Source: Pagrus major (taxonomy: Eukaryota; Chordata; Actinopteri; Spariformes; Sparidae). Taken from it: a stretch of 64,000 bases of DNA. Shown in pieces: positions 29,957 to 56,996 of this stretch (position 1 is the stretch's first letter; each line of letters starts with the position of its first letter). Location of the stretch: contig NC_133218.1 of NCBI RefSeq assembly GCF_040436345.1, positions 9,925,039 to 9,989,038 of the forward strand, in the 5' to 3' direction. Under the pieces are notes generated by a model. That model had not been told where the DNA came from and did no database searches. It saw nothing but the letters and a program-made list of their open reading frames with translations. The translations under genes and the position numbers were made by a program.

Positions 29957-30450
29957 ACAACTTTTCTGTGTTTATCCTGTACAGTGATGTGGCCCAGAAT
30001 GGATGAAAAGTGACCGGTGATGCAAAGGGGGATGAACTTCCACATCATCTGCCCCACCCAACTGCGATTGCTATCTTGTAAACATTCTCCTGTACGTGAT
30101 GAAGGTGTAGATCTAATAGCAAGAGTGTGTCACCTCTGCTGAAAACGGCAGTTATGTTCAGGTGTATTAGTAAAGTGCTACTTCATTGCTCCTTCCTTAA
30201 TTGGTTTAACTGACTTGCTTTCCTTCACCCTCTCTGTTTTTGCTGGGGAAAGCTGCTCGACGGCACTCCAGTACAAGTACCTTGAATTTTATAATGGGAG
30301 GAGACTGTTTGTAATGATGGTTTAAATGTATGTTTCCACTGCTGCTTTCTGGTGGGTTGTACAGTAAAGTCTTAGTATAGTAACAGAAAAGTTCAATCAA
30401 ATGTAAAGTTACACTTATGTAAATAAAGAGGATTCTAACACTATACTGTA
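29957..30450 (+). other. syap1: syap1 3'UTR with polyadenylation signal
   Basis: Follows the TAA at 29954-29956. AATAAA at 30422-30427 is the likely poly(A) signal, giving a 3'UTR of about 490 bases. The whole UTR and its downstream flank have a diverged second copy at 51.55-52.15 kb that has no coding exon in front of it. Confidence 0.75.
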
Positions 30451-30564
30451 CATCTGCTTGGCTTTTTGCATTTTGTATCACAGTTTTAAAAAAAAGTCCC
30501 TTGTGCATGTCTGTTTTACTTTTTTTCTCTGCAACTGAAATACAGTACAAGGGGGGATTGTGTT

Positions 30565-30830
30565 CTTGAAAAATGTGTTTTTGTGATTTTGAAGAATGCT
30601 ACAAAGCCTGATGTGAGGCTATAACACTTGACATGAATTCATTTGCATACTGGTACATTCCATATTTGACCTCCTTGTACATTTAATATGATTGAAGTTA
30701 AGATTATATACAGGACAAGAGGTGAGATTAAACTTATCAAATAGTTGAGCCAATATTAGCATTTATAATGAAAAAAAAGTATTTCATTCAAAACAAATGC
30801 AAAATAGATGGATTTTTTTTTGTCACACGA
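30565..30830 (+). repeat. Duplicated flank block X (first copy)
   Basis: Segment 30568-30690 recurs at about 38590-38725, and 30735-30828 recurs at about 39545-39640, same strand and same order. Shared wording includes tttttgtgattttgaagaat and gcatttataat followed by an A-run. It also matches about 52100-52150 in part. This is segmental duplication, not a mobile element with recognisable ends. Confidence 0.75.
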
Positions 30831-31742
30831 TAGGCCACAAAAGCATTTGTCTTCAAGTTCAGACCATCTTTTTGGCAGAAGATGACATTACACCCTCAGA
30901 GTATAGGACACTGTCCACTGCTGACAAGCATGCACAAACATTTTCTGCTGTGCTTCACCTTACCCTGCGAAAAGCACGCCCAATGATTAATCTATTAGGG
31001 AAAGGGCCTCAGTCGCCCACGATTTCTGCTATGGTTTTTACATGGAGATGGATGATAACCAACTTGTGGCTTGAGATTGTCTGCTGACTCTCTGTTTCTC
31101 AAGCTGTTAATTTTTTTCTGTTGCTTTCTGTCTGTCTTCCACTCTCACTCTCTCTGTCCCTCACAGCAGATCTTGCGGGTCACAAATGTAGTCACTTTTG
31201 TCTGTGTGTGTGTGTCTGTGTGTGTCTGTGCCTGTCTGTTATTCCAAGCAAACCTGCCATCACCGAGACAGAGGGCCCTTTATTACCAAAGTCCAACCAA
31301 TTCAACTGACAAATCCTGCTCCAAACAAACACACACACACACATGCAAACACACACTCATGCAAACACAAACACACACACTCAACCAGTCACATAGACAG
31401 TTGAACAGAAGAGAGGAGCCAGGTGCTGAATCTAGCCATTTCCTTCTTTCTCCCCCTCCCACAAGAAAACTTGCCAAGGTAAGTGAAGCCAAAGAAAAAT
31501 ACTAACCGTCAGTTATATTGCTAACGTTATAGAAACAAGCTAGGCTACAACGTTATAATGCTGTAATTTAGCATTTAGTATAGCTTGTTAAAATTGTATC
31601 ACTGTTACATTATAAGTTAATACTAATTTCTGTTCTATATAAAGCTATATAAATAATAATTTTATTTATTACGTATTCTATGCTAACATGCTCACAGTGA
31701 TGTTTCAAAGTTCAAGGTGATTTATTTGCGATTATGCAACAC
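30826..31742 (+). repeat. Deleted copy of the 56.4-62.2 kb segment
   Basis: Three consecutive parts match distant blocks in the same order: 30826-31460 matches about 56416-57072, 31457-31675 matches about 59618-59890, and 31677-31742 matches about 62178-62242. The copy thus lacks about 2.5 kb, a smaller piece of about 60 bp and about 2.3 kb relative to the long version. The junctions fall in short shared wording (ctccc; tacgtat). CA/GT microsatellites lie at about 31198-31230 and 31327-31382. The end of a putative first exon with splice donor (caagaaaacttgccaag, then gtaagtg, 31461-31485) is retained. Confidence 0.8.
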
Positions 31743-31766: not shown

Positions 31767-34709
31767 TTAGATCTCCATGCCACAAAAAGCCTGCCAGACC
31801 TGGGAAGTGAACTGGGGGCCGCGATCCGAGACAATGTAAGAGGGGAGTCCATGGAGCCGGAAAACATGGAGGGTGTGCAGGTCGGTGGTCTCAGAGGCAG
31901 ATGGGAGCTTAACCAGGGGAATGTAGTGAGTCATCTTGGAGAAGCGATCCACTATGGTGAGAATAATGGCGTGTCCATCAGAGAACGGAAGACCAGTAAC
32001 AACATCCACAGCTATATGGGACCAACCTGGACGAATGGCCCCACTGTAACACCTCGGACCAGACCTCCTCTGGCAAGAATAGGCGGTTAGGTGGACCTGT
32101 ATCAGGGTCAGGGTAACTGTGTTGGGCCTCCCGCAGAATTGTCTCAATCTCCCAGGTAGTAGCTCCAATGATCCGGGGAATGAGTACAATGGGCTTGGGG
32201 TAAGCAGGAGTTGCATCAGAGGAGAAGAGGCAAGAGAGGGAATCTGGCTTTCCATTTTCGGGAGCCGGGACAGTAAGAGAGGGTGTAGTTAGAGCGACTA
32301 AGGAATCAATCAGGCTCAACTCCCACCAGTGAGCCTGGTGGGAGTTGAGCCTTCTGGCAGAGTGCGGGTAAAAACGGTTCTTGTGGTCCGTCCAAATGAG
32401 GAAGGGCTCCAGGGTACCCTCCAGCCAGTGTCGCCACTCCTGGAGAGCCAAGACCACTGCCAAAAGCTCTCTATTTCCTATGTCATAATTTCTCTCCGCA
32501 GGGGAGAGATGTCAGGTGAAAAAGGCACAGGGATAAAGCTTATGTGTAGTAGCATTACGCTGGGAGAGAATGGCCCCCACGTCGGAATCTGAGTCCTCCA
32601 CCTCTACCACGAACTGACAATCCGGGTCGGGATGCTGAAGGACAGGGGCGTGAGTGAATTGCATTGAACTGTCATAAGGGCGGTGAGGTGGCAGAGACAG
32701 GGCTAGTTCTTAAAGAACACAGTAGACAGATCATGGTATGCTGGCGGCACTAGAGACAAATCTGGGGGTTTAGGAGGGATGGAAGCAGATACCTTGACTG
32801 ATGTAGCGGCGGAGTGGAGACAGTGGGATTGGCAAAAGGTGCTCCAGCTGGAAATGGAGGCTGCAGTCCAGTCTATGTGGGGGTTTTGAAGACATAGCCA
32901 GGGGAGACCCAGTGTGACTGGGGCAGAGCGTGAGGGGATGACGAACAGCTGGAGACACACACGATGATTTCCAGAGATGAGTAAGGTGATGGGTACTGTG
33001 CGATGAGTAATGGTGGCCAAACGCCACCCATCTAGGGCAATTACCATTTTGGGGGTGTTGAGGGGTTCAATGGGGATGAGTGTCTGTTCAACCAGGGCAG
33101 AGTCAATGAAGCTGTCGTCAGCGCCAGAATCCATAAAAACATTAATGGGAATGGACTTACGTGACCACTGGAGGGATGCCGGAAGATTGATACGGACTGG
33201 AGGGCTGGAACTGGAGGAAGTCTGGCTCACCAATGTGCCCTCTTTCACTGGCAAACCGGTCCTTTTGGCAGAGCCAGGCAGAAGGCGAGGTAGTGTCCGG
33301 GCTGACCACAGTAGATGCACAGCTGGTTTGTAATACGGCGTAGACATTCCTCAGGAGTCAAACGAGTTCTTCTCCCCTGCATTGGTTCCTCCAGGGCAGC
33401 AGGGGGAGCTCTGAGGATCCAGGAGGGACATGGGGAACTCCGAGGTGCTGGCAGAGACTGGGGGATCTGACTAGGGTTGGAGCTAGCTGGCCTACGACTG
33501 GTGGACGCTTTCTCTCTCTGTCTCTCCCTAAGACGATTATCCTATCGGATAACGAAATGAGTTGCTCAAGGGATGCTGGCTCTTCTCGAGAAGCTAACTC
33601 ATCATGTAAATTATCTGCAGATGCGGAAATCAATGGAGTAGGCTGCCACTGACTGGGAACCCTGGCGTAAGGGGAATAACCTACTTGCTGCCTCCAAGCC
33701 CTGTACCGAGTAATCAAAAACCCGCATCTCATTCACAAAAGTGACATGAGAGTCGAGAGCCCCACTCCCATAATGCTGTTCCCCACTGTGTTGCCTTCCC
33801 TCTCAACAGATTCATGGTATAAGCTATCTGTGACTTATCTGAAGCATAACTGGAAGGTTGTAAATTAAACACATGTGAACATTGTAATAAAAAACTACCA
33901 CAGGAACCAAGGTCTGAGTAATGTTCAGGAGGGGGAACAAAAGGTTCCTTGGCCAGGGGAGAAGGAGGTCGGGCTGAGTTTGTAGTAGGTGGATTACTCA
34001 CAGTAGCAGGTGTAGCTGAGGGGGGTGCAGGTGGCTGGGAGGCAAGCAGGTTGATTTGGTGGCCGAGGTGGGAGACATTGGAGCACAAAGGCTAGAGTGA
34101 TTCCATAACCTCCCGGAGCATATGCTCATGTTTTCCCAGGAGGATGCCTTGAGCGTTTAGAGCCTGGTGGAGGGATTCCGGATCCGCTGGGTCCATAGTT
34201 GGCCAGATGATTCTTTTACAACGTGTTGTGAATGGTAGGACCCAAAAGCGGACGAGGCAGGGAGTAGAGTATAAGGAGGTTTATTTAACTTCACAAGGTA
34301 AATGCAGGTGAAGGTGGAGAGATACTCATGCTGGAGACTTCCTCCGAGAGGTGGAAGGAGGAGGAGAGGTTGATCACGGTGGCGCTGGTGGATAGCGTGG
34401 CATGTGGGAGCTCAGGTGAGCGCAGGGCAAGGTTGTTGTCTGCAGAGGTGCGGAGAGCTGGGTACTGGAAGCGGAGCCACTGGTAGCTGGGAATGCAGGT
34501 GATCACATGTCTGGCTGACAAAATCATCTGGCAGCAGGTAGCATGAAGACCAGGGCTTATCAGCAGGCACTGATTGCCAACCTGCTGCAGGTGTATGTGT
34601 GACAGCAGCTGAGGGGAAACCCCGCCCAGCTTCTCAGTGCACCTCAGCAAGAACAACAGAAAGCAAAAAACCACCAAAACACACAAAAAAAACTTGACAG
34701 GCTGTGACA
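31767..34709 (-). mobile_element. Truncated, internally deleted Ty3/gypsy retrotransposon
   Basis: Read on the minus strand: an LTR-like end (34709-about 34227, starting TGTCACAG and containing an AATAAA), a gag start at 34196 with a stop at 34094-34092, gag-type sequence to about 33360, an aspartic protease with the DSGAD motif near 33120, a sharp junction near 32695 where the reverse-transcriptase core should be, then RNase H sequence (about 32690-32300) and part of the integrase core (to 31767). The second LTR and the integrase end are absent. Frames are broken in gag and RNase H. It is a dead remnant inserted between duplicated sequence at 31.74 kb and the PLL gene at 35.0 kb. Confidence 0.9.
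34227..34709 (-). repeat. Probable 5' LTR of the gypsy remnant
   Basis: On the minus strand it begins TGTCACAGCCTGTC and ends in CA just before the leader of gag, and carries an AATAAA near its 3' side. TG...CA ends and the position before gag fit an LTR. No second copy exists in the window to confirm the borders. Confidence 0.5.
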
Positions 34710-35003
34710 GACTGTGCCAATTGATAAGAGCACAGAATGGTCCCTGTGTGTGTTTTGAGCCTGGACTCATTTGTATTCATTGATAAGAGAATATAGATAA
34801 CAAAACAGGCTTTTGGATGAGAATAGTATAGTTTAAAAATATGTCAATATGTCAAGCTTGTGCTACCTCTAGGTATGGACTTGGTGTTTTTTTTAATTTG
34901 CTGACTAACTGTTCTCCCTGCCTATCCAAAAGTAAACTTTAGATTTGTTCCTCTTTTACAACTACAGTTTGCTGTCTTTGTTTCTTTTCAGCAGTAGTTA
35001 CCA

Positions 35004-37160
35004 ATGGAGCTCCGACTGACTGATAATCTGAGGGCTGTGTTCATCTTGATCATCCTCCTCTCCTCAGGTAAGATAACCACAGTAGGGAAAAAAGCATCTT
35101 TTAGCCTCATATTATTCCAATGATGGCATTAATGCTAGTGACTGATTTACATGCAAATTAAACTTGTCGGTTACAATTATTCGACGCAGTTTTGACTGAT
35201 AGATTGAAACAAGGATCAATTAAACCTCTCTTTTTTTTCTTTTCTTTTTCACATTTTCATGTAAAACCTTTTCACAAGTTTCTGCAGCAACTTCACAAGT
35301 CCAACATCTTACTTTGAGCTCATTAGAATGTGTTTGCGAAAATCGGATTTTCCTTATTTAAAAACAAAAAAACAACACTCAGTCAAAACTGGATGAAATC
35401 AATCTTTTATGGTGAATGTGTTTTGTTGTGTGAGCTCATCTGTTTCTCAGTGGGTTTATGTGTGAAACTGCAGTGTTGTGACAGTTTTACATTCACAATC
35501 TCACAAAAAAGACTGCATTTTAAATGTTCCTACTTGTGTCTCTTTCAGGTTCAAGTGAAGACCCGGACTTTAACTTTTGTGGCACCTGGCTCCATGGCAA
35601 AGGCTCCCTGAGCGTCAATGTCAACCTGACCCCAGGCTGTAATGGGATTTCAATCTCAGCCAATGAGAGCTCTCTGTCCATCGATGGGCAGATCACAGCC
35701 AAATGCAAATGGTCTGATGTAATTCCCCTTGACAAGTTTGGTCTTGATTCATCAAAAGATAGTTACTTCTGTCTGTACTGGGAGCCGTTGCTGGACCAGT
35801 TGAAGCTGCAGGTAAATCAGGAACAGGAGGAAGGAGGCAATATGAGGGTTTATTGACCAGTATGTGTCCATGCAGCGGGTCATCACCTCTCACATCTAAA
35901 CACTATTATAACGTCATCTGTCATTCTTCAGTCTGGCTCAGTAATGAAAGTACTGAAAAGACAAGTACACTGTTTTCCTCTGATTACAAGTAATCATCAG
36001 TCTACAAAGTAGAAGGTTTGAAAACAAAACTAGGATCCTTTTTTGGGGGGGTATCTACAATATCAGTTCTGAAAGTGAAATAGTAAGCTGTTCTACAAAA
36101 ATGTGTGTACGTAAAATGTGTAAGACTCAGACGCAGAGTATATGACACAGCAGCTTCATGGCAGTCCTCATTAAAGAGCTTAATGGCCGATGTTTGTTTT
36201 TGTTTTGTTTTTGTCATATTTTGTTGTACAGGTCGGAGGACAGAACCTCACTCTGTGCTGGCCTGCCAGCCTACAGGGCTCCTGCTGCACGGATCTGGCT
36301 AATGGTGCAAACAAACCCAAGGCACTCTATGGCATCATCAATGCAATGGTCAAAACCGATATGCTCAGCCATGATATACGGACAGGCTACATTTTCAATG
36401 GAAGCCCCATCAACTGCAGTAAGAGAGAATGGATGTTGTCTGCACATCTGTAAATGGAATATGTTCAGAAAGAGAAACGTTTTTTGATTTAACCCATTAT
36501 ATTCTGTTTCAGTAAATCCAGTAAGATTTTCCACATTGATTGTTAACATTTCCTCTTGTGCAGTCAAACACACAATATGTTTGTAAGGATTACCTTCAAA
36601 ATAAAAGCATCAAAACTAGCCAGAAACCAAAATATGATACAAACAGACTTAAGAATCAGATTCTTATTTAAGTGTCAGAGTTTAGAGTTTGTATGTATAA
36701 TGGTTGTTTTAAAATGTATTTATTTTTTCAGGTGAGTTATGTGATCGAGCGGACCAGGAATCTACCCAAGTCAACATGTAATTTCCTCTCTTTTTTCTCA
36801 AATGCGACATCACATTTGTTGTCAAAGTACCATGACAGGGTGTTTTTATCAACATCCTCCTCCTCATATGGCTTTTTCTTAATTGCCAAGCCCACTGTTG
36901 CGAAGCTTTGTGTAATCAAGTGCATGAACTTTGACAACAACAGGAAGCTAAGCTTTACACTATATCAGGGTGGGGGTAACAAACATAACCTTGCTTCTAA
37001 GTGGCTTGAAGCCACAGTTTCTAACTTAATATCATGGCAGTGTGTGTTAGTGTGTGTGTGTCTCTGTGTTGAGGTTCCAAGGTGTCGGGATTGTTGAGCA
37101 TACCTGTGCTCGCAGCTTCATCGTGGAGATGGAGGAGGAGGCGTCAACCTGACATCAAAT
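35004..37160 (+). CDS. PLL-domain module A of an ADGRG1/GPR56-like receptor, secreted-form candidate
   Basis: Exons 35004-35067 (signal peptide, hydrophobic VFIILI-type core), 35549-35811 and 36232-36418 join in one open frame. Exon 4 starts after CAG at 36732 and, read on, meets TAA at 36779-36781: about 187 residues. The domain matches the PLL (pentraxin/laminin/neurexin-like) N-terminus of ADGRG1/GPR56-group adhesion GPCRs: DFNFCGTW near the start, ISISANESSLSI, the diagnostic FCLYW, and the LTLCW and SCCTDL cysteine strands. If exon 4 is spliced earlier (AT|GTAATT), a further exon ending at 37160 is frame-disrupted compared with copy C (about ten bases missing). No GPS or transmembrane exon follows on this strand; AATAAA at 37601-37606 could end the transcript. 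So it may encode a soluble PLL protein or be a decaying receptor fragment. A possible 5' exon end with splice donor lies at 31461-31485. Confidence 0.62.
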
Positions 37161-37379
37161 GTAAGACACATACAGAGGAAGAGCCAAAACTTGACTTATT
37201 TAAATTAAAGGGATAAAGCAATATTCATGTAAGATATGTAAGAAAATTTCATCACAAGGTCCATTAAGTAGCGGTTGTGGAGATTTTTAAACATCAGGAT
37301 GAAGTGATTGTTGTCGTGTTTTGTGTTTGTCTTGCTATGGACCCTGAGTCTGAAATAAAGATATATATATAAATATATA

Positions 37380-38470
37380 TATATTACCCTAAGCAGATGA
37401 AGTTCATCATGGAATTGTAGATGCTCAAATTTTCATTTTTCCTCAGCAAATAACAGACTTCTCTTAAAAGCTGAGGTTCAAAGTACATCCTTGACCATGG
37501 AATCTAGAGCCGAGAAAACAATCTCCGTACAAGATCCATCTAGTAGCTCTTCTGGAGCTTTCAATCACCATATCAACATATAAACTGCTGTGGAGTCAAG
37601 AATAAACTTTAAACTTCTGAACTGAATTGACTTGTCTCAGGTCATGTGTCAACCTACACTGTAGTCCACACAGGCCACATCAGCTACATTATAACCGCAC
37701 TGGTTCTGTCTGAGTTGCATTTTTACTTTATTTTTAGTATGCAGTGCATACTAAAAAAATTAAGCGGGGAAGCTTTTTTCTGCATGCATGAAACAGCAGG
37801 TTTTTTTCACAGGTAATCATTCATAAGACTGATTATATTTACTTAATGACTTGATAACTTTATGCTATTCTTGTAACTAGTTTCATATAAGAAGTTAACA
37901 GTTTTTGTTCAGTGGCAGCGATGGGTAGAAAGTCGCTCAGTTCACATACAAAGTAATCTGTTGATTCAGAAATTAACTCACAGATTCATTTTTTTCACTC
38001 AAAGTCTATTTTCCTCATAGCAGTGGACAGAAGACACTGCACTGACTTATCCCTACTCTGCAGCTCAACTGAACTGGCTGCTTCACTCTGTGACTGTGAG
38101 CGTCCATTTTTAATCACAGCACTTTATAGCAGGTTTTTAATTCAGTGAATGAGTAACTGTCTTAACATTTTCATTCATGTCAAGGGTGGTAGTGATTTAG
38201 TTAAGAAAATAGGTGTGAGGTTAGCCACATGAAAGTGAGTGACAGCAGCACTTTACTGACAAGTAGAGGACAGACTTTGAAAGCTGACTTTATTCCTCCA
38301 AACAATCTTAAAATAGGACCATTTGTGTGAGTACCCAGCAATCTACATGCACGTCTTCTAATTACAGCTGTGGACAGCATGGGGACGTGATGCATGCTCA
38401 CTATACTATATGGTGAGCTGGTTTATGGCTGGTGGCTCCCCTGTTCATTTGTCACATATTTATCTTAAAA
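37380..38470 (+). repeat. 3' part of the inverted duplication (partner of 45.7-44.6 kb)
   Basis: About 37380-37900 matches 45700-45200 in reverse complement (shared gagaaaacaatctc, ctggagctttcaatc, catatcaac, AATAAA, gtcatgtgtcaacct). About 37990-38050 and 38400-38470 match 44770-44600 (agtggacagaagacac; gtgagctggtttatggctgg). It extends the A-to-C homology beyond the coding exons. Confidence 0.75.
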
Positions 38471-38589
38471 GTGAATAAACCAGGCCCTGTTGTGCCATCT
38501 CTAACCGTACAATGCTGTGCTGCTTGTCTCTGTTTTTCAGGTCACTCACGGTGTATCTGCAGAGTCCACTATCACTGCTCTAAAATGAT

Positions 38590-39640
38590 AGAAAAACGTG
38601 TTTTTGTGATTTTGAAGAATGCTACAAAGCCTGTTGTGAGGCTATAACACTTGACATAAATTCATTTGTATACTGGTACATTCCAGGCTTGGCATCTTTG
38701 ACCTCCTTGTACATTTAATTTGATTCTCTCTGAAGTCTGCCCATTGTATACGAAATAGTTTAAACAAACTCAATCAGAAATGATAATTTTTCTCAGAATA
38801 ATTAGACATTTAATGAAATAGTCTCGAGAGTTAAATTTGATACTGTATGTCTCATGTCCGCCATAAAAATAAGGCTACATACAGCAGTTTGGTTAGTTTA
38901 ATTTAGCCTGAAGACTTTAAAGAGGAGGAAACCCAGAAGGAAGAGGAAGGTAGCACAGCTCTGTCCAAAGATGGTTAAAAAATGTAATATTATTAATTCA
39001 ATATTTTTTTTAAATCTCCCTTCCACAACAGATTGTATCTGGTTTGTTTGATCCAAACAGCATATAATATGTGAAGAAGTATGTAAGAACACTGAGAGTT
39101 AACACTAAATTATGATTATGTGTATGATTGTATTGTTGTAATTAGCTGATTTGCCATTTCCCTCATCAATTTCTCTCTATTATATTAACATAACTAGTCC
39201 CATGAAATTAGCATTTAGCCTGATGCTGATGGTGTGTGAAGAACAGGCCATGTAAGGTCTCAAACACACCTCAAAACTTTGCAAGAACTATGTGAAGACC
39301 AAAGAAGACTGAGGTCCTGACTGTCATGGACATTTATGGGGGCACTTGAAGACTGAGAAGGCCGAGTATTCTGTAATATCACAAGAAGCTTCGTGGAACA
39401 ATGACAAATCATGCCTCAGGTTTTTACACAAACTTGTGGAGTCCATGCCAGCTCAAGCACATGCTGTGATTTTAAGCAAAAGAGGGACAAAACAAATACT
39501 AAGATATTCTGAAATGAATGCCCATTTTTCAAAGATTAAACTTTTTACTCAAATAGTTGAGCTGATATTAGCATTTATAATAAAAAAAACAGTATTACAT
39601 TCAAAACAAACGAAAATAGATGGATTTTTTTTGTCACAGC
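38590..39640 (+). repeat. Duplicated flank block X (second copy), interrupted
   Basis: 38590-38725 and 39545-39640 match 30568-30690 and 30735-30828. Between them lies about 800 bp of unrelated sequence including a degraded interspersed repeat (38868-39070, gctctgtccaaag motif). Block X therefore sits both before and after PLL copy A. Confidence 0.7.
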
Positions 39641-39728
39641 ACGTGATCATTTGATTTGTGTTGGAGATTAAAGAAATGATCAAACTACATTGAGTTCAGT
39701 TTAGAATAACTAACACATTTTGGTCCAT

Positions 39729-39753
39729 TTTAATAATAATAATAATAATAATA

Positions 39754-39792
<39 letters not shown>

Positions 39793-39885
39793 AATAATAC
39801 TTATCATTAATAATAATATTAATAATACTTATTATTAACAATAATAAAAATTATTAATAATTATTATTATTATTAATATTATTAA

Positions 39886-39922
<37 letters not shown>

Positions 39923-39925
39923 ATA
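39729..39925. repeat. (AAT)n/(ATT)n inverted microsatellite tract
   Basis: Runs of AAT change into runs of ATT and back several times, so the arms are mutually complementary. The tract can fold into long AT hairpins or a cruciform. Confidence 0.9.
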
Positions 39926-40228
39926 TTCTATGTAAATAAAAACCTTTTTTTTACTTAAAGTCTGAATAGGGTCTGAAAAACATACTGAGTCATCTGAAGT
40001 ATATTATAAAACATTCAGCTCTTAATTTTGCAATGTATACATACTGTAAAAACCTCTTCTATTATACATGTCACAGTAATACAAACGACAACTACATTAG
40101 CTACATTAAAAGAGTTTGAATCACCTATAAAAAAACATTTTGGACAGTACAAAAATACAAATGAAGCTTAAATTTCATCTAAGGTTCAAGGAGAGCTCCA
40201 ATAATAATATATTGCTTTTCTTCACATA

Positions 40229-41787
40229 CACTGAACAAAAATATAAAAGCAACACTTTTGTTTTTGCTCCCATTTTTCATGAGCTGAACTCAAAGATCTA
40301 AAACATTTTCTAGATACACAAAAGACCATTTCCCTCAAATATTGTTCACAAATCTGTCTAAATCTGTGTTAGTGAGCACTTCTCCTTTGCCGAGATAATC
40401 CATCCCACCTCACAGGTGTGGCGTATCAAGATGCTGATTAGACAGCATGAATATTGCACAGGTGTGCCTTAGGCTGGCCACAATAAAAGGCCACTCTGCA
40501 ATGTGCAGTTTTGCTTTATTGGGGGGGGTCAGAAAACCAGTCAGTATCTGGTGTGACCACCATTTGCCCCATAGAGTTGATCAGGTTGTTGATTGTGGCC
40601 TGTGGAATGTTGGTCCACTCCTCTTCAATGGCTGTGCGAAGTTGCTGGATAATGGCAGGAACTGGAACACGCTGTTGTATACGCCGATCCAGAGCATCCC
40701 AAACATGCTCAATGGGTGACATGTCCGGTGAGTATGCTGGCCATGCAAGAACTGGGATGTTTTCAGCTTCCAGGAATGAATTGTGTACAGATCCTTGCAA
40801 CATGGGGCCGTGCATTACCACGCTGCAACATGAGGTGATGGTCGTGGATGAATGGCACAACAATGGGCCTCAGGATCTCGTCACGGTATCTGTGCATTCA
40901 CAATGCCATCGATAAAATGCACCTGTGTTTGTTGTCCATAACATATGCCTGACCATACCATAACCCCACCGCCACCATGGGCCACTCGATCCACAACGTT
41001 GACATCAGTTGACATCACGCTGTCTGCCATCTGCCCTGAACAGTGAAAACCGGGATTCATCCGTGAAGAGAACACCTCTCCTCGCCATCGAATGTGAGCA
41101 TTTGCCCACTCAAGTTGGTTACAAAGACGAACTGCAGTCAAGTCGAGCCCCCAATGAGGACGATGAGCATGCAGATGAGACGGTTTCTGACAGTCTGTGC
41201 AGAAATTCTTTGGTTATGCAAACGGATCGTTGCAGCAGCTGTCCGGGTGGCTGGTCTCAGACGATCTTGGATGTGAACATGCTGGATGTGGAGATCCTGG
41301 GCTGGGTGGTTACACGTGGTCTGCGGTTGTGAGGCTGGTTGGATGTACTGCCAAATTGTCTGAAACGCCTTTGGAGACGGCTTATGATAGAGAAATTAAC
41401 ATTCAATTCATGGGCAACAGCTCTGGTGGACATTCCTGCAGTCAGCATGCCAATTGCACGCTCCCACAAAACTTGCGACATCTGTGGCTTTGTGCTGTGT
41501 GATAAAACTGCACATTTCAGAGTGGCCTTTTATTGTGGCCAGCCTAAGGCACACCTGTGCAATATTCATGCTGTCTAATCAGCATCTTGATATGCCACAT
41601 CTATGAGGTGGGATGGATTATCTCGGCAAAGGAGAAGTGCTCACTAACACAGATTTAGACAGATTTGTGAACAATATTTGACAGAAATGGTCTTTTGTGT
41701 ATCTAGAAAATGTTTTAGATCTTTGAGTTCAACTCATGAAAAATGGGAGCAAAAACAAAAGTGTTGCTTTTATATTTTTGTTCAGTG
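40229..41787 (-). mobile_element. Tc1/mariner-type transposon with long inverted repeats, defective
   Basis: Flanking TA dinucleotides at 40227-40228 and 41788-41789. Ends are CACTGAACAAAAATATAAAA and its reverse complement; the inverted repeats extend about 285 bp on each side (40229-about 40512; about 41505-41787) with few differences. The minus-strand transposase reads from about 41481 (helix-turn-helix region with MSTRAVAHELNV) through the catalytic part (VMVWSGI; SPDMSPIEHVWDAL) to about 40516, but the frame is broken at least twice (near 41257 and near 40870). No neighbouring gene is disrupted. Confidence 0.93.
40516..41481 (-). pseudogene. Broken Tc1-like transposase gene
   Basis: Three open pieces in two or more frames: 41481-41257 (DNA-binding N-terminus), 41141-40881 (first catalytic part) and 40863-40516 (C-terminal part with the PIE motif of the DDE/DDD triad). 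The region that should hold the second catalytic aspartate (about 40800-40860) is frame-shifted. It cannot make active enzyme as it stands. Confidence 0.85.
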
Positions 41788-41799
41788 TACAATACAATG

Positions 41800-43230
41800 T
41801 AAACCACAGTGCAGTAACCTACAATCATTTAACACCCCCATGTTTCCCTGTCAGGAAATGAAGTTTAACTTCATCTAAACCTTTAAACAATTTAAAACCT
41901 CAAATAAATTCTTTCCCAGTCTAGATATTCTGAAAAAATCGGCTCCAGGCCTGTATTATGAGTGAAGGTGTCATTTAATCCCCAAAATCCAATCCAGTAT
42001 CGTGATATCTGTGAATTGCAAGTGTGCTTGTGTTCACCAACCCAGCTGCTCTGTGGTGATTAATATCACAGGATGCCAGAAGACTGAGAGGCGTAGGATG
42101 TAGTTGATATCTGGAGTCACTCTTCGGTTGTGGTTTGTCACTCAGACATGCCAGCGGTTACCACAGCTGATGGCATAATTTCAACTGAGGAAACAGTGAT
42201 TCTATTGGTGCAACACTCTTCTGCATTTTGTCATTTACAGTACTTGATAAGAATACTGTATTTTTACTGCTATGGCTTTGATTTTTCCACTGTATTAAGT
42301 TTCACATATTTTTTCCTTCAAAAAAAAAAAAATCAATCCAGGCACTCCAAGTCAAGGTCAAATATAAAGAGCCAACATGTTTTAGCCCGTAGACCTTTAT
42401 CAGAGCTCCAGTTTGGAGCTTGGAAATGATAGCTTGGATTCGTAGTGGTTGAAACAAGCTGGCTTTTTTAATGATTGACGTTTTAATAATTTATCCACTA
42501 TAATAAAGGCTTTTCTATATTTCCTTCCTCGCTAAATACGTTTTCTTGTACTTGCACTCAACACAATTTGTATCAAGGCTACATTGTATTAGATAGAGCA
42601 ACCAGGTATGTCTTCCTATTTTTAGGGCACACTACATGTACTCAAACCAGGTGCAGCAGTCTGACATCATAAGCATGACAACAGCATGCTCTACTTCTTC
42701 TTCTTCTATGTCAATCATTCTGACTGGCTATAAATACAATTATAGCCTATATATCCTATATATAACAAATAATATCAATTATTATCATTATCAGGCTGAT
42801 AAATGATCAGCTTATATACACCAGGATGACCAGGGTTGTCATACTGGTGAAGTAGTGGGCCAGCAAGGCCTTGTGGGTGTTACCAATAAATACACTCATA
42901 CACATGACACCACTCCTTTGCTAAAGACTACAGTTAAGAACATGGGCTGTGTGACTTTGAGATTGACTGAGCTTGCTTTTATTTTTACATTATCCAGGCA
43001 TCAGCTCATATGTTTCTTCACAGCAAATATCTTCATATCTGAAAAAAGTTACTTACATCAGATCAGGACTGTATGGTTCATCACATGGCTGTACCTCCCT
43101 CACTCCATAACATCACATAATAACAGGAACAGCAGGGAGAGCTGGAAAACAGTTCCATAGGTCACACATTAATATCACCTTTACCTAAATGTAGCGAAAA
43201 GGATGTTCCTTTTTGGAAATGTTACTTGAC
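41800..43230. other. Gene-free stretch downstream of the GPCR exons
   Basis: I looked here on the minus strand for TM3-TM7 of the receptor exons at 43.2-44.1 kb and found none. No other gene or named repeat is evident. Confidence 0.5.
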
Positions 43231-43238
43231 TCACTCAC

Positions 43239-44076
43239 CGAAGCCGACCAGGTTCCACACATAGGCCTTTGGGGCTGAAAACCACGTAGACCAACCAGAA
43301 GGTGTGAACCCCAGTAAAGAATAAGAGCCCATTGAGGAGGATCAGAGAGACAGCTAGGCCCAAGTGGATAGGTATGGACTGCTCCTTAGATCGTCTGCTG
43401 GAGGGAGAGTGGAATAGAAATCAGAGGGCTACTTAATAATTAAAAATGTATCTTGTTTGATAAACTACATAAGCCCTCGAAGAATAGAATTACCTCTTCC
43501 TACAGAGACAAATGATGAGAACGACACAGCTGATCACAGACACAGCACAGCCGAGAGATGTAATGGCGGTCAGTGCCACAAGGTGGCAGACTGGCCGAGG
43601 CTCCAGTTGCTGTTGGGACACGATGAGCAGAGCAACAAACACCAAAATGTGTTTCTGTGTATTTTCATTTTAATGTTTCCTCACTATAAACAGAAAGTTA
43701 GTGTCTATATGTGTTAAATCATGTATAAATGGATTTTTGCTGATTGATTTTTTGGTCTTTAACATTAACAATGTTGAGTAGAAAAAGAGAAAATAGCAGA
43801 GTATCTGCTGCTTGTCTCACCACTAGTATAGAGAAGTAAGTCAGGTGGTTACAGTGGCACTCTGTGTGGTCTGCTCCTTGCTGATGTGTCTCACATCCAT
43901 CCACCAACCAATTGACCTGTGACGGATCTGCACAAAGAAAATACTTAATCAACATCATAGGGAGTTAAACCAAATACACAGGGAGATACAGATATATTGT
44001 ACGTTACAACAACATTGTTTTAAGCGTTCCAACCTTTCCTGGTGTCCCATGAAACACATTTCCTTAAATGCGTTTT
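43239..44076 (-). pseudogene. Adhesion GPCR fragment: GPS motif, TM1 and TM2 exons
   Basis: Four exons with good splice sites: 44076-44034 and 43927-43821 together encode a complete GPS motif (KCVSWD, then NWLVDGCETH, then TECHCNHLTYF) with the four cysteines, two tryptophans and the HL|T autoproteolysis site. Exon 43609-43494 encodes TM1 (VALTAITSLGCAVSVISCVV) and 43397-43239 encodes TM2 (HLGLAVSLILLNGLLFF) and part of the following loop. All are open and in compatible phase. In adhesion GPCRs the GAIN domain cuts itself at this site and the tethered peptide activates the 7TM core. No TM3-TM7 exon was seen to the left, so the receptor is truncated unless the exons are very divergent. Position and strand suggest it is the 3' part of PLL copy C. 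Confidence 0.75.
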
Positions 44077-45845
44077 CTGAAATAAACAGGAGGGAGAGAT
44101 GTGAGTAGTAATCATTTCAGGTGCATCATTCGAATCAGTAGCAACTGTAAAAATTTACATTCATCATTTCCATCCTGCATGCTAAATCTGTAGTGTGTCA
44201 CCACAGATAGTTCAAGTCACAGTGTAATAATATGAGAGATCAGGTATCGCTGAACTGAACGGACGGTTTGTGGGCTCTCATTATAGAGAGGAAGCAACAG
44301 ACTGTCCTGAGTGTATAAACAGCACCATCTGGTTTCACGAGATTTGAGGTAAGAAGAGAAACCTTCAAGTGGTTTCTATGTGTTCTCTGTACAGAGGTAG
44401 ACAGTCTGGATCAGACGTCATGGAACTGGAGAGGAGCTTCTTGTTTGTGTAACAGCAGCCGCAGCAAACCACATTTGAGAAGTTTGTGTGTTTATTGACA
44501 CGTACATCACACGTTACACTCAAAGCAGTTTAGGGGGGGAAAACAGAGCCTTTCCTGGAACAGTGAGTCGTTTTTGAAGAAAGTGCAGAAGATAAATATG
44601 TGAGAAATTAACAGGGGAACCACCAGCCATAAACCAGCTCACCATATACTATAGTGAGCAACGCACACAGACACAGGAGGGAGCAGTTGAGGTATATTAT
44701 ACTGTCGAGAACAGTCATGTGTCTTCTGTCCACTGCAATGGGGGAAATAGACTTTGAGTGAATAAAATAAAATATTTTTTATTTTATTTTCCTGAATAAA
44801 CTGATTAGTTTGTATGTGAATTGAGACTCAGATCTCTTTAATACATGCAGCATGGAGAGAAGACCTGCCGTGTTCTCTGCAGGTCTTCCAAATATTTCTG
44901 ACTCAAATACAGCAGAACAGTGGTTACATACTTAATGACAGCTTTTAATCACTCCTTCCCCAAACAATGACCCCCTGATGTTTGTTTTGACATTTTATTG
45001 GACAGTAACTGTCATCCTATCTACCGGCCTATTAACCCCTCAGGTGAAGGGGAATCTCCCTTCCTCTCACATCCTGATATGTTCTCTACCATACACGGAT
45101 TTCTGAATCCAAAACTGTTTAATTCCCACAGACTCTACCCATCATAGCCACTGAAAAAAGAAATGTTAGCTTATCTGTTTTCCTATACAAAACTAGTTAT
45201 ATGAATAGTATTAAGTTGTTAAGTCACTAATGTTCAGTCAAAAAAAGCCTGCTGTTTCCCTTTTATTCCACGCTTCCAAACATGCATGACCTCATGTATT
45301 TCTGTTTCTGTTTGTGTGAAAGAGGAAACGTGCTTCATTTTTGAGTATGCAGTGAAAATGCAACTGACACACAAACATTGTGGTTGTAATCTTGCTGATG
45401 TGGCCTCTAGAGACTGCTGTGAAGGTTGACACATGAACTGAGACAATCCAGTTCTGAAGTTTAAGGTTTATTCTAGACTAAGGAAACAGCCATTTATATA
45501 ATACGTTGATATGACGATTGAAAGCTCCAGAACAGCCACTAAATGGAGCTTGTGCTGAGATTGTTTTCTCAGCTGTAGTTTTCCAAGGTCAAAGCTAGTT
45601 GCTGAGGGAAAGTCCTTAATGTGCTCAGGAAAGAGATTAAAATTTGAGCATCTGCAACTCCATGACAAACTCCATCTGCTGAGGACGATCATGTCATATG
45701 TTTGTTGCCAACTGCACGTTGTGGTGAGATTTTCTTACAGATAGTACAGTAAATATTGCTTTAAGTTCTGGTATTATTCTGAATGTGATATCAACTCTAC
45801 TTTATGGACTTAATATAATTTTTTTCCATTCAATCTTTATTCAAC

Positions 45846-47192
45846 CTGTGTTTGATGTCACGTTGAAGCCTTTGAAATCCTCCTTCATCTCCACCTTGAA
45901 GTTGTGAGCGCAGAGATGCTCAACAATCCCGGCAACCTTGGACCTTAAAAATGTGGCTAAAGGGCACTTTTTAAAAGAAGCAAGGTCATTTTTGGACCCC
46001 CCACCCTAACATAATACGTTCGTAGTCAAAGTTCATGCATTTGATAAAGTACAACTTCAGCAACAGTGGGCTTAGCAGTCAAGAAAAAGCCACATTAGAA
46101 GGAGGATGTTGACAAAAACACCCTGTAATACTACCTTGACAACAAATGTGATGTCACATTTGAGGAAAAAGAGAGAGGAAGTACTGTTGACTTGGTTGGA
46201 CCCCTGGCTCGCTTGATCACATAATTCTTCTTATGTGATCAAGAAGAATTGACAGTATAGACAAAAATAAAACATAAAAAACTAAATTCTGATTCTAAAA
46301 TCCATTTGGATTTCTGGACTAGGTAGGTAATGCCTCGATACTTACATTTGACTGCACAAAAGACAATGTTAACAATCAGTAGGAAACCGTCTTACTGGAA
46401 CAGATGTCTTACATTTTGGTTTAACACTGACTTTCATCTTGTTAAAGTATATTCCATTTATAGATGTGCAAACAACATCCATTCTGTCTTACTGCATTAG
46501 TCAATGTCCCTTCCATTGACAGTGTTGCCTGTCAGTATATCATGGCTGATGATATCACTGTTGACCATTCCATTGATGATGCAATAGGGTGCTTTGGGTG
46601 TGAAGGGGCCATTAGTCAGATCTGTGCAGCAGGAGCCCTGTAGCAGCACAGAGTGAGGTTCTTTCCTCCGACCTGTACAATGAAATAAGACAACAAAACA
46701 AAAACAAATAACCCCCATTAAGCTCTTTAATGAGGACTGCAATTAAGTTACTGTATCATATACTCTGCGTCTCTCTGAGTCTTGCATATTTCACGTACAC
46801 ACTTTTTGTAGACCACCTTCTTGCTGATACTGTGGTTACCAAGAAACAAAACAGGATGTCACTTTGGTTTTCACACTTGGTACAGACTGATGAGTCCTTG
46901 TCTGTCACTCACATTGAGCTAGCTTTGAAAAGGAAAAAAACGTTCTTTTTCAGTACCTATATGAGCCTGATGATGGGTGAAGAATGACAGGTGAAGTTAT
47001 AATAGTGTTTAGATGTGAGAGGTGATGACCTGCTGCATGGAAACATACTCTTCATTAAACCCTCATCTTGCCTCCTTCCTCCTCTTTCTGATTTACCTGC
47101 AGCTTCAACTGGTCCAGCAACGGCTCCCAGTACAGACAGAAGTAACTATCTATTGATAATTCAAGTCCAAACTGTTCGAGGAGAATCACATC
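45846..47192 (-). pseudogene. PLL-domain module C (ADGRG1-like), decayed
   Basis: Remnant of exon 2 (about 47192-47097, with FCLYWEPLLDQLKLQ and GTAAAT donor), exon 3 (46672-46493) and exon 4 sequence (about 46230-46190), then a candidate exon 45943-45846 containing IVEHLC. The first half of exon 2 and the signal-peptide exon are absent. Exon 3 lacks about ten bases in the CWPAS region, which shifts frame, and its end has an extra stop. The exon 4 acceptor is replaced by a palindrome. The copy lies just upstream of the GPS/TM exons on the same strand and is the inverted partner of copy A. Confidence 0.72.
46212..46243. repeat. Perfect 13-bp palindrome in PLL copy C exon 4
   Basis: CTTGATCACATAA, six-base loop ttcttc, TTATGTGATCAAG. 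Copy A has only one arm (ttatgtgatcgag) after its splice acceptor; in copy C the second arm replaces the acceptor. Confidence 0.9.
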
Positions 47193-47519
47193 AGAATTTG
47201 ATGATGCAAAAATAAGTAATGACAATCTGGAAACCAAACAGTCCTCTGTCTAATTCTCACGTTAATACATGAACAGGTCAAGTGGTAAATTGTAATACAA
47301 TACAACTGTAACCTAAACAGTCTCCATTAGATCATGTTGATAATCACAACCACATGTACTTGTATTTTATGAAACAATGCAGAGTTTATCAGCAGAGAGA
47401 CTAGTTTTAATCTGCCTGTATCAATGTGTCAGTGTCCAACATGTCTGTTGATTTACACTGCAGCAGAAACAGTGTGAAAAAGTTAATTACCAACAAACCA
47501 ACACGTTTAATTCACTGTA

Positions 47520-47595
47520 CAGATTGTAAAGCCCACTGAGGCCATGTGAATGTGATTTTGGGCTATATAAATACAATCAATTTGATTTGATGTGG
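47520..47595. repeat. Dispersed repeat tail
   Basis: gtaaagcccactgaggccatgtgaatgtgattttgggctatataaatac-type wording is the 3' tail of a common fish retroposon. It lies between PLL copies B and C. Confidence 0.45.
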
Positions 47596-47942
47596 ATAAA
47601 ATCCTGTCTCGCTGACATTAATGCCATCCTCTTGATGTTCCACCATTGAGACATCTTCAGAATGAAATTTGTGGTGTTTCCAAACGGGGCTTTGAGATTA
47701 CTGAGAGAAAATCTCTCTTTGTGGCTGACTTGGATTGTGAATTCTCTGCCATCATCGCCACATGGTTACTGATGAATTATTAGCTTGTTTCAGTTTGACC
47801 TACATTTACCTTTCAATCAGTGAAGGTGAACTTAGTGTGTGTGACTCTTGCCCGTCCTGCAGTGCATTCAGTGGGATTATATATACAAATTTACAAAATT
47901 TGGTTATAGCCCGACCTGCAGACACCATCAATTCTCACTTAC

Positions 47943-48956
47943 TGCAGTCCATGGATGTTCCATATAACTTATAAGCTGTCAATGTTTTGTGGCTGATGAT
48001 GTCTGATTTGACTGTTCCATTGATGACGCCACAGGGTGCTTTGGGTGTGTTTGCACCGTCAGACAGATCTGTGCAGCCGGAGGCCTGCAGGCTCGCAGGC
48101 CAGCACAGAGTGAGGTTCTTTCCTCTGACCTGTACAAGAACAACCTGAAAACAAACAGCCCCCATTAAGCTCTTTAATGAGGACTTACTGTATCATATAC
48201 ACTGTGTCTGAGTCTTACACATTTCATGAACACATTTTAGTAGAACACCCTACTATTTCTGTTTCAGAGCTGATACTGTAGTTACCCAGAAAAGAACAGG
48301 ATGTCACCTTGGTTTTCACACCTTCTGCAGATTGATGAGTCCTTGTCTGTTGCTCACAGTGAGACAGCTTTGATTACTTTCATATGTTACTGAGCCAGAT
48401 GATGCTCTTATTGGCTGAGACTGAAATCCCATTACAGCCTGTGGACAGGTTGACAATGAGGCTCAGGGAGCCTTTGCCATGGCGCCAGGTGCCACAAAAG
48501 TCCGGGTCATTTTCACTTGAACCTGAAAGAGACACAAGTAGGAACATACAAAAGATGGATGTTGTATTATTTTGTATTTATTTATTAATTAATTTTTTGA
48601 TTTATGAAATTATTTTTAAAGTGGCTCCGTGGGACTTCTCTGTTGTGCTGGAAGCAGGCCGTTAGTTAGCGGGCTCCATTTCTAAAGTAACATTAGCTAT
48701 TATTGCTCTCAAAAGACTTATACAAGTCGTCCACAGGCTGGTTTAGGCATTCTGTGAAACCCCCAGTATCTATGAGCATGTGTGATGTTATCTTTTACAG
48801 TTTCCTTTTGTGGTGTAGCATGTTAGCAACACAGTTGTGACCATGAATATGACGCTAAAAGAGATGTTTTTTCCCCAGTGTGGTTATCTTACCTGCAGAG
48901 AGGAGGATGATCAAGATGAACACAGCCCTCAGATTATCTGTCAGTCCAAGATCCAT
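47943..48956 (-). pseudogene. PLL-domain module B (ADGRG1-like), partial
   Basis: Exon 1 48956-48893 encodes the signal peptide, the same 64-bp length as copy A. Exon 2 starts at 48522 (DFCGTW-type beginning) but stops matching copy A near 48404, where sequence from the following intron is joined on (gagcatc/atctggctc), so reading on meets TGA at 48382-48380. Exon 3 48129-47943 is open and exactly 187 bp as in copy A, with LTLCW and a GCTDL segment. Thus the module lost the second half of exon 2, including the FCLYW strand. It is orientated towards copy C, which retains mainly that missing half, so B and C together look like the product of a tandem duplication with deletion. Confidence 0.75.
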
Positions 48957-49441
48957 TGGTAACTTCTGCAGAAGGGAAACAATGGCTACAAAGATGCAGT
49001 TGTAAAAAAATTTACAAAGCTACAGCTTATTTCTGCCTAGGCAGGGAGAACAGTTTATAACCTCAAAAGGCTCATTTCAATGAAACAAATAACACAAACA
49101 TGTCTCTCACATTCTTTGTATATTATGCAAACACATATCCGATATCAAATGAAAGGTCCATATGTGGAGGTAGCACAGGTTTAACTTGATATGTATTCTA
49201 ACTGCAAAGTTGAAATGTTTTCATTATCACACTGCTGTGATAAAACAGAGCGGTCTCTGACTGACTGTCCTCATTCCCCTCATTGAATGGAGTGTGTAAT
49301 GCAGATTATATTCACTGTTGTAAAAAGATATTGTTGCTTGAAAGTTGAGGATAAACCAAATGTAAATTTGCATGAAGGTGCTCTTTAGTGGCACTGCAGC
49401 CATTTTTTAGGTAACATCACAAAACATGATATTTAATGCCA

Positions 49442-51240: not shown

Positions 51241-51552
51241 TTCTCAAGTGATTTCCCTCTCTGCAGGATTTCCTGAATTCTTAAGTTGTGAAAATAGAGG
51301 AAGGGTGTTTCCTTTGCAACTCACTGTCTACAGTACAGTGTTTCCCATTTCCATAGAAATCAGGATGTCTCAGTTTTACTGTAAGTGGTGAGTTGCACAC
51401 TTAAAGGCAGTTTGTGTTGCATGTCTTTTTTGAAAAAAAAAAAAGACAAAACTTTTTCTCTATTTTTCAACCAGCTTGGTCTTAATCTATCTGGGTTTGC
51501 CGCCTGAGTAGAGCCTTTGTATGGAAAACGCTGCAGCTTTTGTGTGTGTGTC

Positions 51553-52150
51553 TCCTGTACAGTCATCTGGCACAGAACGGATTAATAGTGACCACAAGAG
51601 GATGAACTTCCACTTCCTCTGCTCCACCCATCTGCAGTTACTATCCTGTTAACATTCTCCTGTATGTAATGAAGGTGTAGATCCAATGTTCAGATGTGTT
51701 AGTGTAGTGCTGCTTCATTGCTCCTTCCTAATGTGGTGTTATTGACTTGCTTTCCTCCACCCTCTCTGTTGTAAATGATACAAGCTACTAGAGGGCGCTC
51801 CAGTGCCATGAATTTTAAAATAGAAGGGGCCTGTTTGAAATGACAATTGAAATGTTCTTTCCACTGCAGCTTTCTGAACGGCTGTGCAGTCTTATACTTA
51901 TTATAGTTACAATAACAGAAAAGTTACCCTGATGTAAATACATTTTGTATCACATTTAGAAAAGAAAACTCCTGTGTGCATGTCAGCTTTACTTTGTTTC
52001 TCAGCAACTGAAATACAGTTTATTTTATTTTCTGTTATCTGTCATCCCTTAATAAATATTTACCTGTTAATTTGGACAAAATACAAATAATAGAAAACAC
52101 TGTTTTTATGATTCTGAACAATGCTACAAAGCCCTAACATATGGCATACA
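51553..52150 (+). repeat. Diverged second copy of the syap1 3'UTR and flank
   Basis: Matches 29975-30620 in the same order: gatgaacttccac, ttaacattctcctgta, atgaaggtgtagatc, gctccttcc, agggcgctccag (partly), gcaactgaaatacagt, caatgctacaaagcc. Several small gaps, including loss of the AATAAA region. No syap1 coding exon lies before it. Confidence 0.85.
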
Positions 52151-54180
52151 ATCATTATAGCTGCTTACAGGCACACATGACAGTGATGTCCGCCCATTGA
52201 TGTAGCATGAAGACAAGAGTTTGAACAAAAACATAAATATAAAAGAGAGAATTTGATTTCATACAGTACCCAAATGGAAATGGTTCAGTTCCATATAAAG
52301 TGATGACAGGAAAGATTTGCTTACAATTATATGGGAGACCTGTGTCCTCAGGAGGACCTTTGCATAGTCCTTGCATAAAGGCAGACAATTATCCGAAATC
52401 AATAACAAGGAACAGATTTGTGGTTCTCACAAGACAGCAATGCCGCAAACATGATCATCTTATAGAATATGATGCATTGCTAGATTAAACTACCCAGCAA
52501 TACATAAAGTGAGCTCAAGCTTAAACATCTGGTAACCCTTATTTCATATGTTTACTTAAGTAAGGTATTGAATGCAGGACTTTTGGTGTACTTGTATTGG
52601 AGTATTCTCAGTGTGGTAATTCTGAATACTTCTCCCACCACTGATAAACTCACACATAAATTTAAAGTTCAAACCCTTCACTTCGCACTGACCCGCTGTA
52701 TGGCCACGTTTTGTTATATAATAAATGCTTTCACAGCTGTATTCATTTAGCTTATCGTATTGTAACTCACTGACACTAGATCAGACAAATACCACCAGCA
52801 AATGATCAGTATGACAAAGCATGTGAAATATTTTTATATATCTGATCCCATTCTCTCTCATAATACCCCCGGTATCATGAGTCACTGTAGTGTCCTGTCA
52901 TTGTGAGAGGAGGAAGAAGTAGTGCCCTGAAGGCAAGAGACCATGTTTGGCAGCAGAGAACTAGAAGCAAAAACAAAATGTATCACTGGCATTGCTTTTC
53001 ACCGCTGGAGACAGCTTTCTGGTGAATAAACATACATATAGCACCTTTAAGCTAAGCTAATTGGAGCTTGGCTTTAGCCTTATATTTCACAGACAAACAA
53101 GAGAGAGTCATCAATCTTCTCATCTAACTCCTCGCATGAAGTGCCAAACTGGAGTCTCTATGAAAAAACATGTCAAGTGTTCTTCCCCTAAATCATTTAA
53201 GTCCAGACTGATGTATTTTTACTTCAGTGTGCTCTTTCTGGTCAGTTGAATTCAATAATTCAGGTCATTTAGAGGTCCAAGACATTGACTATGTAGTCTC
53301 AACATCCAAGGTTTAAGGGAAGTGTGTTGCATGCTACCAGAAACCCCACCCACCCCCATCTCAATCGCTCCTCACTTCCTGTCAGCTCTCCACTACGCAC
53401 TGCATAATAAAGGACTACATTTTTGTAAACGGCTGTATTTTTGTATTTATTTGGCAGTGAAATGGCAGTCATTTTAGCTTCCTGCCTTAACTTCAGACTG
53501 CTCAGCCATTTCAAGTACATGATCATTCCAGACAAAGTCCCTCTCTGAATGAACTCTGAGAGTTTGTCATTTAATATGTGGTTTACAGTAACAAGCAATG
53601 CCGCTCTGGCTGAATGTGAGGTGGAACTGAGGTCAGAGTGCAGTGGTGCACGAGAAGAAAGTCAGTGGAGAAGAGGGAGTATGTAGGAATAGAATGATGG
53701 AGACGAGGCCTGGATGTTTTTGGTAGTAGAAAGTCTGTAATCATGTTCAATGAGACAAACACATAGCTCTGCTTGTGCCAACCAGACATCAGACTTGTCT
53801 CTGCATGCTCCCTACGTATCTGAGAGTTATGGAAACAGATGGCACGCAGTCTGGAGTGTCAACACTACTCCCACCACAATAAAGAATGAATCTGAGAATA
53901 AATACTCATTTGCAACTGGCAATCAATACAAGGATCAATATGCTAATTATGCTTCTCTCTCCCTCCTGCTGTCCTTCAGGTTTGTGTCCGGGCATATAAT
54001 GTGAAAACAGAAAGCTTAATGAGTGGACCGTTTCTCATTGTTTGCCTCTCTTCCTCATACACACACATACACATCACTCCTATCACACCGTCACAGTCAG
54101 GGTCCACCAGCTGGTCTCTAGCAGGACACACAGTTGTCACCATGGTGACAAAGCCCGGCAGATGAGGACCCATGTGTGTG
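52150..54180. other. Gene-free stretch
   Basis: No supported gene. 53040-53130 is a fragment of the gcttagctta-type dispersed repeat (ctttaagctaagctaattgg, then tcttctcatctaactcctc). Confidence 0.5.
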
Positions 54181-54248
54181 TGTTTATTGCCTGGTTTATC
54201 ACTCTTTTAATAATGCACAAAGGCGGGCCAGTGTGTGTGCTTCTGTGC

Positions 54249-54250
<2 letters not shown>

Positions 54251-54341
<91 letters not shown>
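54251..54341. repeat. (GT)n microsatellite, about 45 units
   Basis: Longest GT array in the window; it produces the cysteine/valine and threonine/histidine open frames on the two strands. Confidence 0.95.
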
Positions 54342-54344
54342 TAG

Positions 54345-56806: not shown

Positions 56807-56848
<42 letters not shown>

Positions 56849-56958: not shown

Positions 56959-56996
<38 letters not shown>

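Follow-up and report, generated by a model that had tools for sequence, protein, structure and literature searches.

The 64,000-nucleotide stretch of the Pagrus major genome analysed here (the window, positions 9,925,039 to 9,989,038 of contig NC_133218.1, hereafter C4) contains, on both strands, exons resembling those of ADGRG-type adhesion G protein-coupled receptors (GPCRs), and another copy lies about 5 kb past its end. A first-pass annotation had described three modules, A on the plus strand and B and C on the minus strand. We keep the label A, use M1 for B (47,943-48,956, minus strand) and M2 for C (45,846-47,200, minus strand), and call the fourth copy, on the plus strand beyond the window, D. 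Very probably, they form a local cluster that arose through duplication and decay of one ADGRG-type adhesion GPCR gene. The plus-strand module in the window consists of the following parts.

34,728-38,575 (+): module A, a partial copy of the 5' half of D (C4:9,994,039-9,998,748), with its right end inside a GAIN-domain exon
35,004-35,067 (+): exon 1, 64 bp, with an ATG, a hydrophobic stretch that by inspection resembles a signal peptide, and the donor gtaagata
35,549-35,811 (+): open exon 2 of 263 bp, carrying the first portion of the PLL-like domain
36,232-36,418 (+): open exon 3 of 187 bp, carrying the second portion of the PLL-like domain
36,732-36,781 (+): exon 4, whose weak donor gtaatt overlaps an in-frame TAA
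37,074-37,160 (+): exon 5, probable start of the GAIN domain, with a 7-nt deletion not present in D or M2
38,541-38,575 (+): start of GAIN exon 7 (35 bp, no difference from D), followed by the duplication breakpoint

Since A matches D through its introns and stops at 38,575 inside GAIN exon 7, it is a duplicate of the 5' half of D that has been cut short. The left end of the match is the edge of the D sequence compared, and the match may reach further left. Identity between the two is 96-98% in introns 1 (3' part), 2, 3 and 5, 94% in intron 4 and 92% in intron 6. It is also patchy, in introns as in exons, with 200-bp windows ranging from 72 to 100%.

The splice sites of A exons 1-4 are good, the exon-4 donor excepted, and A is the only copy in which the PLL exons are open together (187 residues). 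With exon 4 left unspliced the predicted protein stops at 187 residues, and with exon 5 spliced in it stops at 212. If transcribed and spliced, A could thus encode a small secreted PLL-like binding domain of 187-212 residues, with neither a GPS nor a seven-helix domain. Exon 6 (near 37,447) was dropped as coding sequence because it has a stop in the expected phase, while exon 5 joins exon 7 in frame. An AATAAA near 37,598, which M2 and D share, might have marked the 3' end of an ancestral PLL-only gene, but this reading was abandoned after the downstream exons of D were found. The Rfam and tRNA scans returned nothing, and the single locus from a viral-contig scan, a 17-residue match within stop-rich sequence, was put down to chance.

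On the opposite strand, the region 34,907-38,466 (+) recurs as an inverted repeat at 44,589-49,055 (-), with exons, introns and 3' flank all alike. Nine inverted blocks with identities of 73-94% and E-values from 6e-10 to 0 were found, including the following.

34,907-35,113 (+) / 49,055-48,846 (-): inverted block, 83% identity
35,518-35,670 (+) / 48,553-48,404 (-): inverted block, 88% identity
35,706-37,020 (+) / 47,200-45,948 (-): inverted block, 73% identity
35,986-36,444 (+) / 48,346-47,917 (-): inverted block, 75% identity
38,395-38,466 (+) / 44,660-44,589 (-): last inverted block, 94% identity

This confirms, well above chance, the first-pass observation that A faces the two minus-strand modules with homology extending into introns and 3' flank. 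The lengths reported for exon 1 (64 bp) and exon 3 (187 bp) likewise agree between A and M1. The minus-strand gene also continues downstream of what had been described, with GPS, TM1 and TM2 remnants at 43,239-43,928. Its parts are listed in the order of transcription.

48,893-48,956 (-): M1 exon 1, 64 bp
48,404-48,522 (-): M1 exon 2, 5' half only, running into a TGA just beyond the deletion joint
47,943-48,129 (-): M1 exon 3, 187 bp, open
47,097-47,200 (-): M2 exon 2, 3' half only
46,493-46,672 (-): M2 exon 3, 180 bp, frameshifted by a 10-nt deletion and a 3-nt insertion, with an in-frame TAA
46,185-46,229 (-): M2 exon 4 remnant
45,846-45,943 (-): M2 exon 5 remnant, probable start of the GAIN domain
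44,525-44,589 (-): remnant of the 3' end of GAIN exon 7, with GAAAGG where D has the donor GTAAGG
44,034-44,076 (-): small exon 9 (KTHLRKCVSWDTRK), preceding the GPS exon
43,812-43,928 (-): GPS exon (GCET...CHCNHLTYFSILV), Pfam PF01825, 45.7 bits
43,494-43,609 (-): TM1 exon
43,239-43,397 (-): TM2-TM3 exon, with about 98 bp deleted relative to D and the TM3 motif region gone
42,818-43,306 (-): remnants of the TM4 and TM5 exon regions compared with D (42,958-43,306, 85%; 42,818-42,879, 90%)

In total, the minus strand holds exon 1 once, exon 2 in two pieces, exon 3 twice and exons 4 and 5 once each. As had been noted, M1 lacks the half of exon 2 that M2 retains: M1 has the 5' half only and M2 the 3' half only, split around a second copy of intron 2 and exon 3. 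Because these halves are complementary, M1 and M2 are one disrupted gene and not two modules, that is, one receptor pseudogene. Its receptor part comprises a GPS, TM1, TM2 and damaged TM3-TM5, and no hit above 75 bits matched the TM6-TM7 region of D. No single gene in the window therefore combines a GPS with a full seven-helix domain, and a loose tblastn search listed no further PLL or seven-helix piece in the window. The proposal of three ligand-binding modules in use is not borne out, as M1/M2 are the split and frameshifted remains of a receptor and A is a partial duplicate cut in a GAIN exon.

Copy D came to light when the genome assembly of the same species (785.9 Mb, 25 contigs) was searched for further copies, as the first-pass annotation had suggested. 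The A protein matched 13 places at E ≤ 1, of which 12 lie at C4 9.96-10.00 Mb and one, weak (E 0.9), on contig C3. The search yielded one additional strong copy.

C4:9,994,039 (edge of the sequence compared) to beyond 10,002,000 (+): copy D, with its strong match at C4:9,995,702

Exons 3-5, 7, 8 and 9 of D and its GPS, TM1, TM2-3, TM4 and TM5-7 exons are open. They were located individually, and their junctions are in phase by eye from exon 3 to TM2-3, where the phase check stops. The joined exon peptides scored 41.9 bits for GPS and 78.8 bits for 7tm_2, making D the only copy with a GPS and a seven-helix secretin-type domain in one gene, as in ADGRG adhesion GPCRs. Against the PDB, the best 9 of the 15 sequences listed were ADGRG receptors, with scores (ADGRG2, 115.1 bits; G3, 114.7; G6, 110.9) that do not separate the subgroups. 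A snap-back inverted microduplication of about 60 bp occurs in D at C4:9,997,650-9,997,723 and is missing from A and M2.

Exon 2 of D carries insertions of 2, 1 and 1 nt relative to both A and M1, and these disrupt its PLL frame in this assembly. D may nonetheless be a normal full-length receptor with a PLL, in which case the exon-2 indels would be assembly errors, the ligand-binding domain would be evolving fast and A and M1/M2 would be by-products. This is quite possible, if short of probable, and it is compatible with a cluster formed by duplication and decay, from which it differs in the state of D alone. The open state of the remaining D exons examined agrees with it. Three insertions within about 60 bp of a single exon do not, nor does the weak exon-4 donor with its overlapping in-frame TAA, which D has in common with A.

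The copies are related in a mosaic fashion. M1 pairs with M2 in intron 2 (unique sites, A 22, M1 14 and M2 11, of 202), whereas in exon 3 A groups with M2 (M1 24, A 10 and M2 11, of 177). Compared with D, the PLL part of the minus-strand copy is 65-87% identical (76% in the two longest blocks), while 43,306-44,511 (-) is 98.2% identical, with differences at 3 of 373 exon sites and 13 of 833 non-coding sites. The simplest account of the latter segment is a patch of recent conversion or re-duplication. The idea of a rearranging local family thus holds up, given the inversion, truncation and patchy identity found. Retained haplotypes in the assembly, which the high A-D identity in introns 1 (3' part), 2, 3 and 5 might bring to mind, are a very improbable source of these copies. 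All copies lie on one contig, and they differ in orientation, flanks and divergence. A ends mid-exon beside a copy of a repeated block (X2, see below), and M1/M2 are inverted and close to D in the GPS/TM block but far less so in the PLL part.

We assigned the family from sequence comparisons. PLL (PF18587) was the sole Pfam family listed for A at E ≤ 10, with 22.2 bits (E 1.7e-4, residues 28-123) against a curated cut-off of 25. With what we take to be the human GPR56 PLL sequence, a close match to the mouse chain, A aligned from a DFxFC block to an FCLYW block with a local score of 66, reached in 0 of 2000 shuffles. With mouse GPR56 (5kvm) only the FCLYW block aligned (score 50, as high in 1 of 2000 shuffles). 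Other searches were less productive: A had no PLL match in the PDB (best E 0.05, unrelated), and a Pfam scan with stops read as X gave the GPS alone on the minus strand (three frames) and no match in any of the three plus frames of A. The same scan of 34,100-43,400 (-) gave transposase-like matches only. These frame scans are sparse because the exons are short. An exon-by-exon search of the assembly with PF18587 gave no matches at E ≤ 1 but missed A itself, had no positive control among 14 named genomes, and is therefore uninformative on other PLL genes. Taken together, A is likely a PLL-like ADGRG N-terminus. The original assignment to PLL modules of a GPR56-type receptor survives in the wider form of PLL-like exons from an ADGRG-type adhesion GPCR, considering the sub-threshold PLL score, the GPS of M1/M2 and the 7tm_2 domain of D.

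Similarities to GPR56/ADGRG1 (PLL-GAIN-GPS-7TM) are the PLL-like first domain with DFxFC and FCLYW blocks, the seven-helix domain in D, and a GPS with GCET...CxCNHLTYF, presumably the letters of the GPR56 GPS. Unlike GPR56, A and M1/M2 both lack a usable receptor part, and in the alignment A has a Tyr in place of His89. This histidine is required for full TG2 binding according to one study (PMC7547085), and a disulfide joins PLL to GAIN in G1 according to a review (PMC13197933). The literature further describes orthologs of the ADGRG1/3/5 group as common to fish, in a paper with a table that lists fish clades next to ADGRG1 and ADGRG3 (PMC8584163), and reports five extra ADGRG-like genes in zebrafish, termed Group VIII-like (PMC4335454). 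We liken the present copies to these zebrafish-specific receptors (g8l1-5) as additional ADGRG-like receptors, with no claim of orthology; unlike them, the copies at this locus are truncated or inverted and mostly broken. An ADGRG-like cluster also lies on the same contig at C4:11,297-11,323 kb, 1.3 Mb from the window. It consists of three tandem minus-strand receptors with GCET or GCDT in their GPS and 28-37% identity to D over TM2-TM3. Unlike the present locus it has no PLL exon that we could recognise, as none was confident among 1196 open reading frames (ORFs) of at least 22 residues in 40 kb (best E 0.097).

We quantified selection on A and D from codon comparisons, leaving out gapped and junction codons. 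Over exons 1-4 (183 codons) there are 7.7 synonymous and 28.3 nonsynonymous differences, giving nonsynonymous and synonymous divergences (dN and dS) of 0.070 and 0.064 and a dN/dS of 1.10, while introns differ at 53 of 1548 sites. The exons are conserved no better than the introns, which also argues against modules in use. A-D nonsynonymous divergence even exceeds that of introns (p = 0.005). Faster exons as a sign of positive selection were left as a lead only, because the introns are patchy, synonymous divergence is also elevated (p = 0.13), and the signal is weaker for exons 1-3 by themselves (p = 0.055); as A-D identity is patchy in the introns as well, conversion can account for the fast patches.

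Changes were assigned to branches with M1/M2 as the outgroup. In exons 1-3, the A branch has five nonsynonymous and four synonymous changes (5 N : 4 S) and the D branch 14 N : 1 S, with 4 N undecided. The D-branch nonsynonymous rate is above its intron rate (14/390 vs 10/828, p = 0.008), as would be expected for a fast-evolving ligand-binding domain in a full-length receptor D. However, the patchy identity can mimic faster exons, the counts are small, and the outgroup is a pseudogene. Unique changes in exon 3 compared with intron 2 among the four copies were in excess in M1 only (24/177 vs 13/202, p = 0.024), with no excess in A (p = 0.38), M2 (p = 0.83) or D (p = 0.10).

Some observations weigh against simple drift and decay. 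The branch counts for exons 1-3 differ between A and D (Fisher p = 0.047), a hint of more constraint on A, which becomes 8 : 5 vs 17 : 2 (p = 0.09) when exon 4 is included. For the older pairs, A against M1/M2, dN/dS is 0.32, 0.50 and 0.73 (21, 33 and 62 codons), below 1, and the reading frame of A is unbroken across exons 1-4. On the family side, the PLL score of A is under the Pfam cut-off. There is thus a hint of mild constraint on the A branch, within small counts and multiple tests.

The complementary states of A, open over exons 1-4, and D, frameshifted in exon 2 but open from exon 3 to TM7, would suit a fission. A would then make a secreted PLL protein acting as a decoy or ligand sequesterer, and D a PLL-less, more active receptor started downstream. 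Along with the A-branch counts, there are precedents in published work: PLL deletion raises GPR56 signalling, with an S4 isoform that lacks PLL (PMC8699533), and many mouse adhesion GPCR genes have separate soluble N-terminal and 7TM transcripts (PMC6667449). The literature searches, covering listings and selected passages, turned up no description of a separate PLL-only gene. Against this, the A-D exons are conserved no better than introns, nonsynonymous and intron rates are the same on the A branch (5/390 vs 12/828, p = 1.0), A exon 5 is frameshifted, and the D indels may be base-calling errors. We consider such a fission unlikely. A receptor split over two loci, with A as a free secreted PLL gene and a D that lost its PLL frame after its PLL had evolved unusually fast, seems marginally less likely again. 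If true, the ligand-binding and signalling halves would be separate genes able to regulate each other.

Outside the receptor copies lie three fragmented copies of a block X, all in one orientation, together with mobile elements and neighbouring genes.

29,967-31,740: X1, upstream of A
38,591-39,638: X2, starting 16 bp past the A breakpoint
51,545-62,240: X3, upstream of D
31,770-34,091 (-): degenerate Ty3/gypsy-like retroelement ORFs between X1 and A, named by reading the ORFs
40,227-41,789: Tc1/mariner-like element (by inspection), with inverted ends of 286 nt at 98% identity, between two stretches matching the 3' flank of D; its DDE_3 match is below the cut-off (23.1 vs 28.6 bits)
5,693-10,398 (-): exons of a BTB/Kelch gene, an ordinary neighbour
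22,263-22,910 (-): Put_Phosphatase exon (PF06888, 206.8 bits), an ordinary neighbour

The placement of X1, X2 and X3 suggests that block X together with the 5' half of the receptor formed a direct duplication unit.

Duplication and decay of one receptor gene remains our preferred explanation. From left to right, C4 would then carry A, a 5'-half fragment on the plus strand; M1/M2, a minus-strand pseudogene in which exon 2 is split, exon 3 is present twice and part of the 7TM is missing; and D, on the plus strand and open from exon 3 to TM7. The copies, their orientations, the breakpoint, the lesions and the mosaic identities can be read directly from the DNA, and segmental duplication, inversion and gene conversion would have produced them. 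A is probably drifting, and the minus-strand copy appears to be dead.

The evidence as it stands favours ordinary decay. The locus presents adhesion-receptor genes in the midst of being duplicated, inverted, truncated and converted, and offers a concrete test case of whether a GPR56-type PLL domain can persist as a separate gene. If A is expressed, its product would amount to a natural soluble version of PLL, the domain whose deletion reportedly raises GPR56 signalling (PMC8699533).

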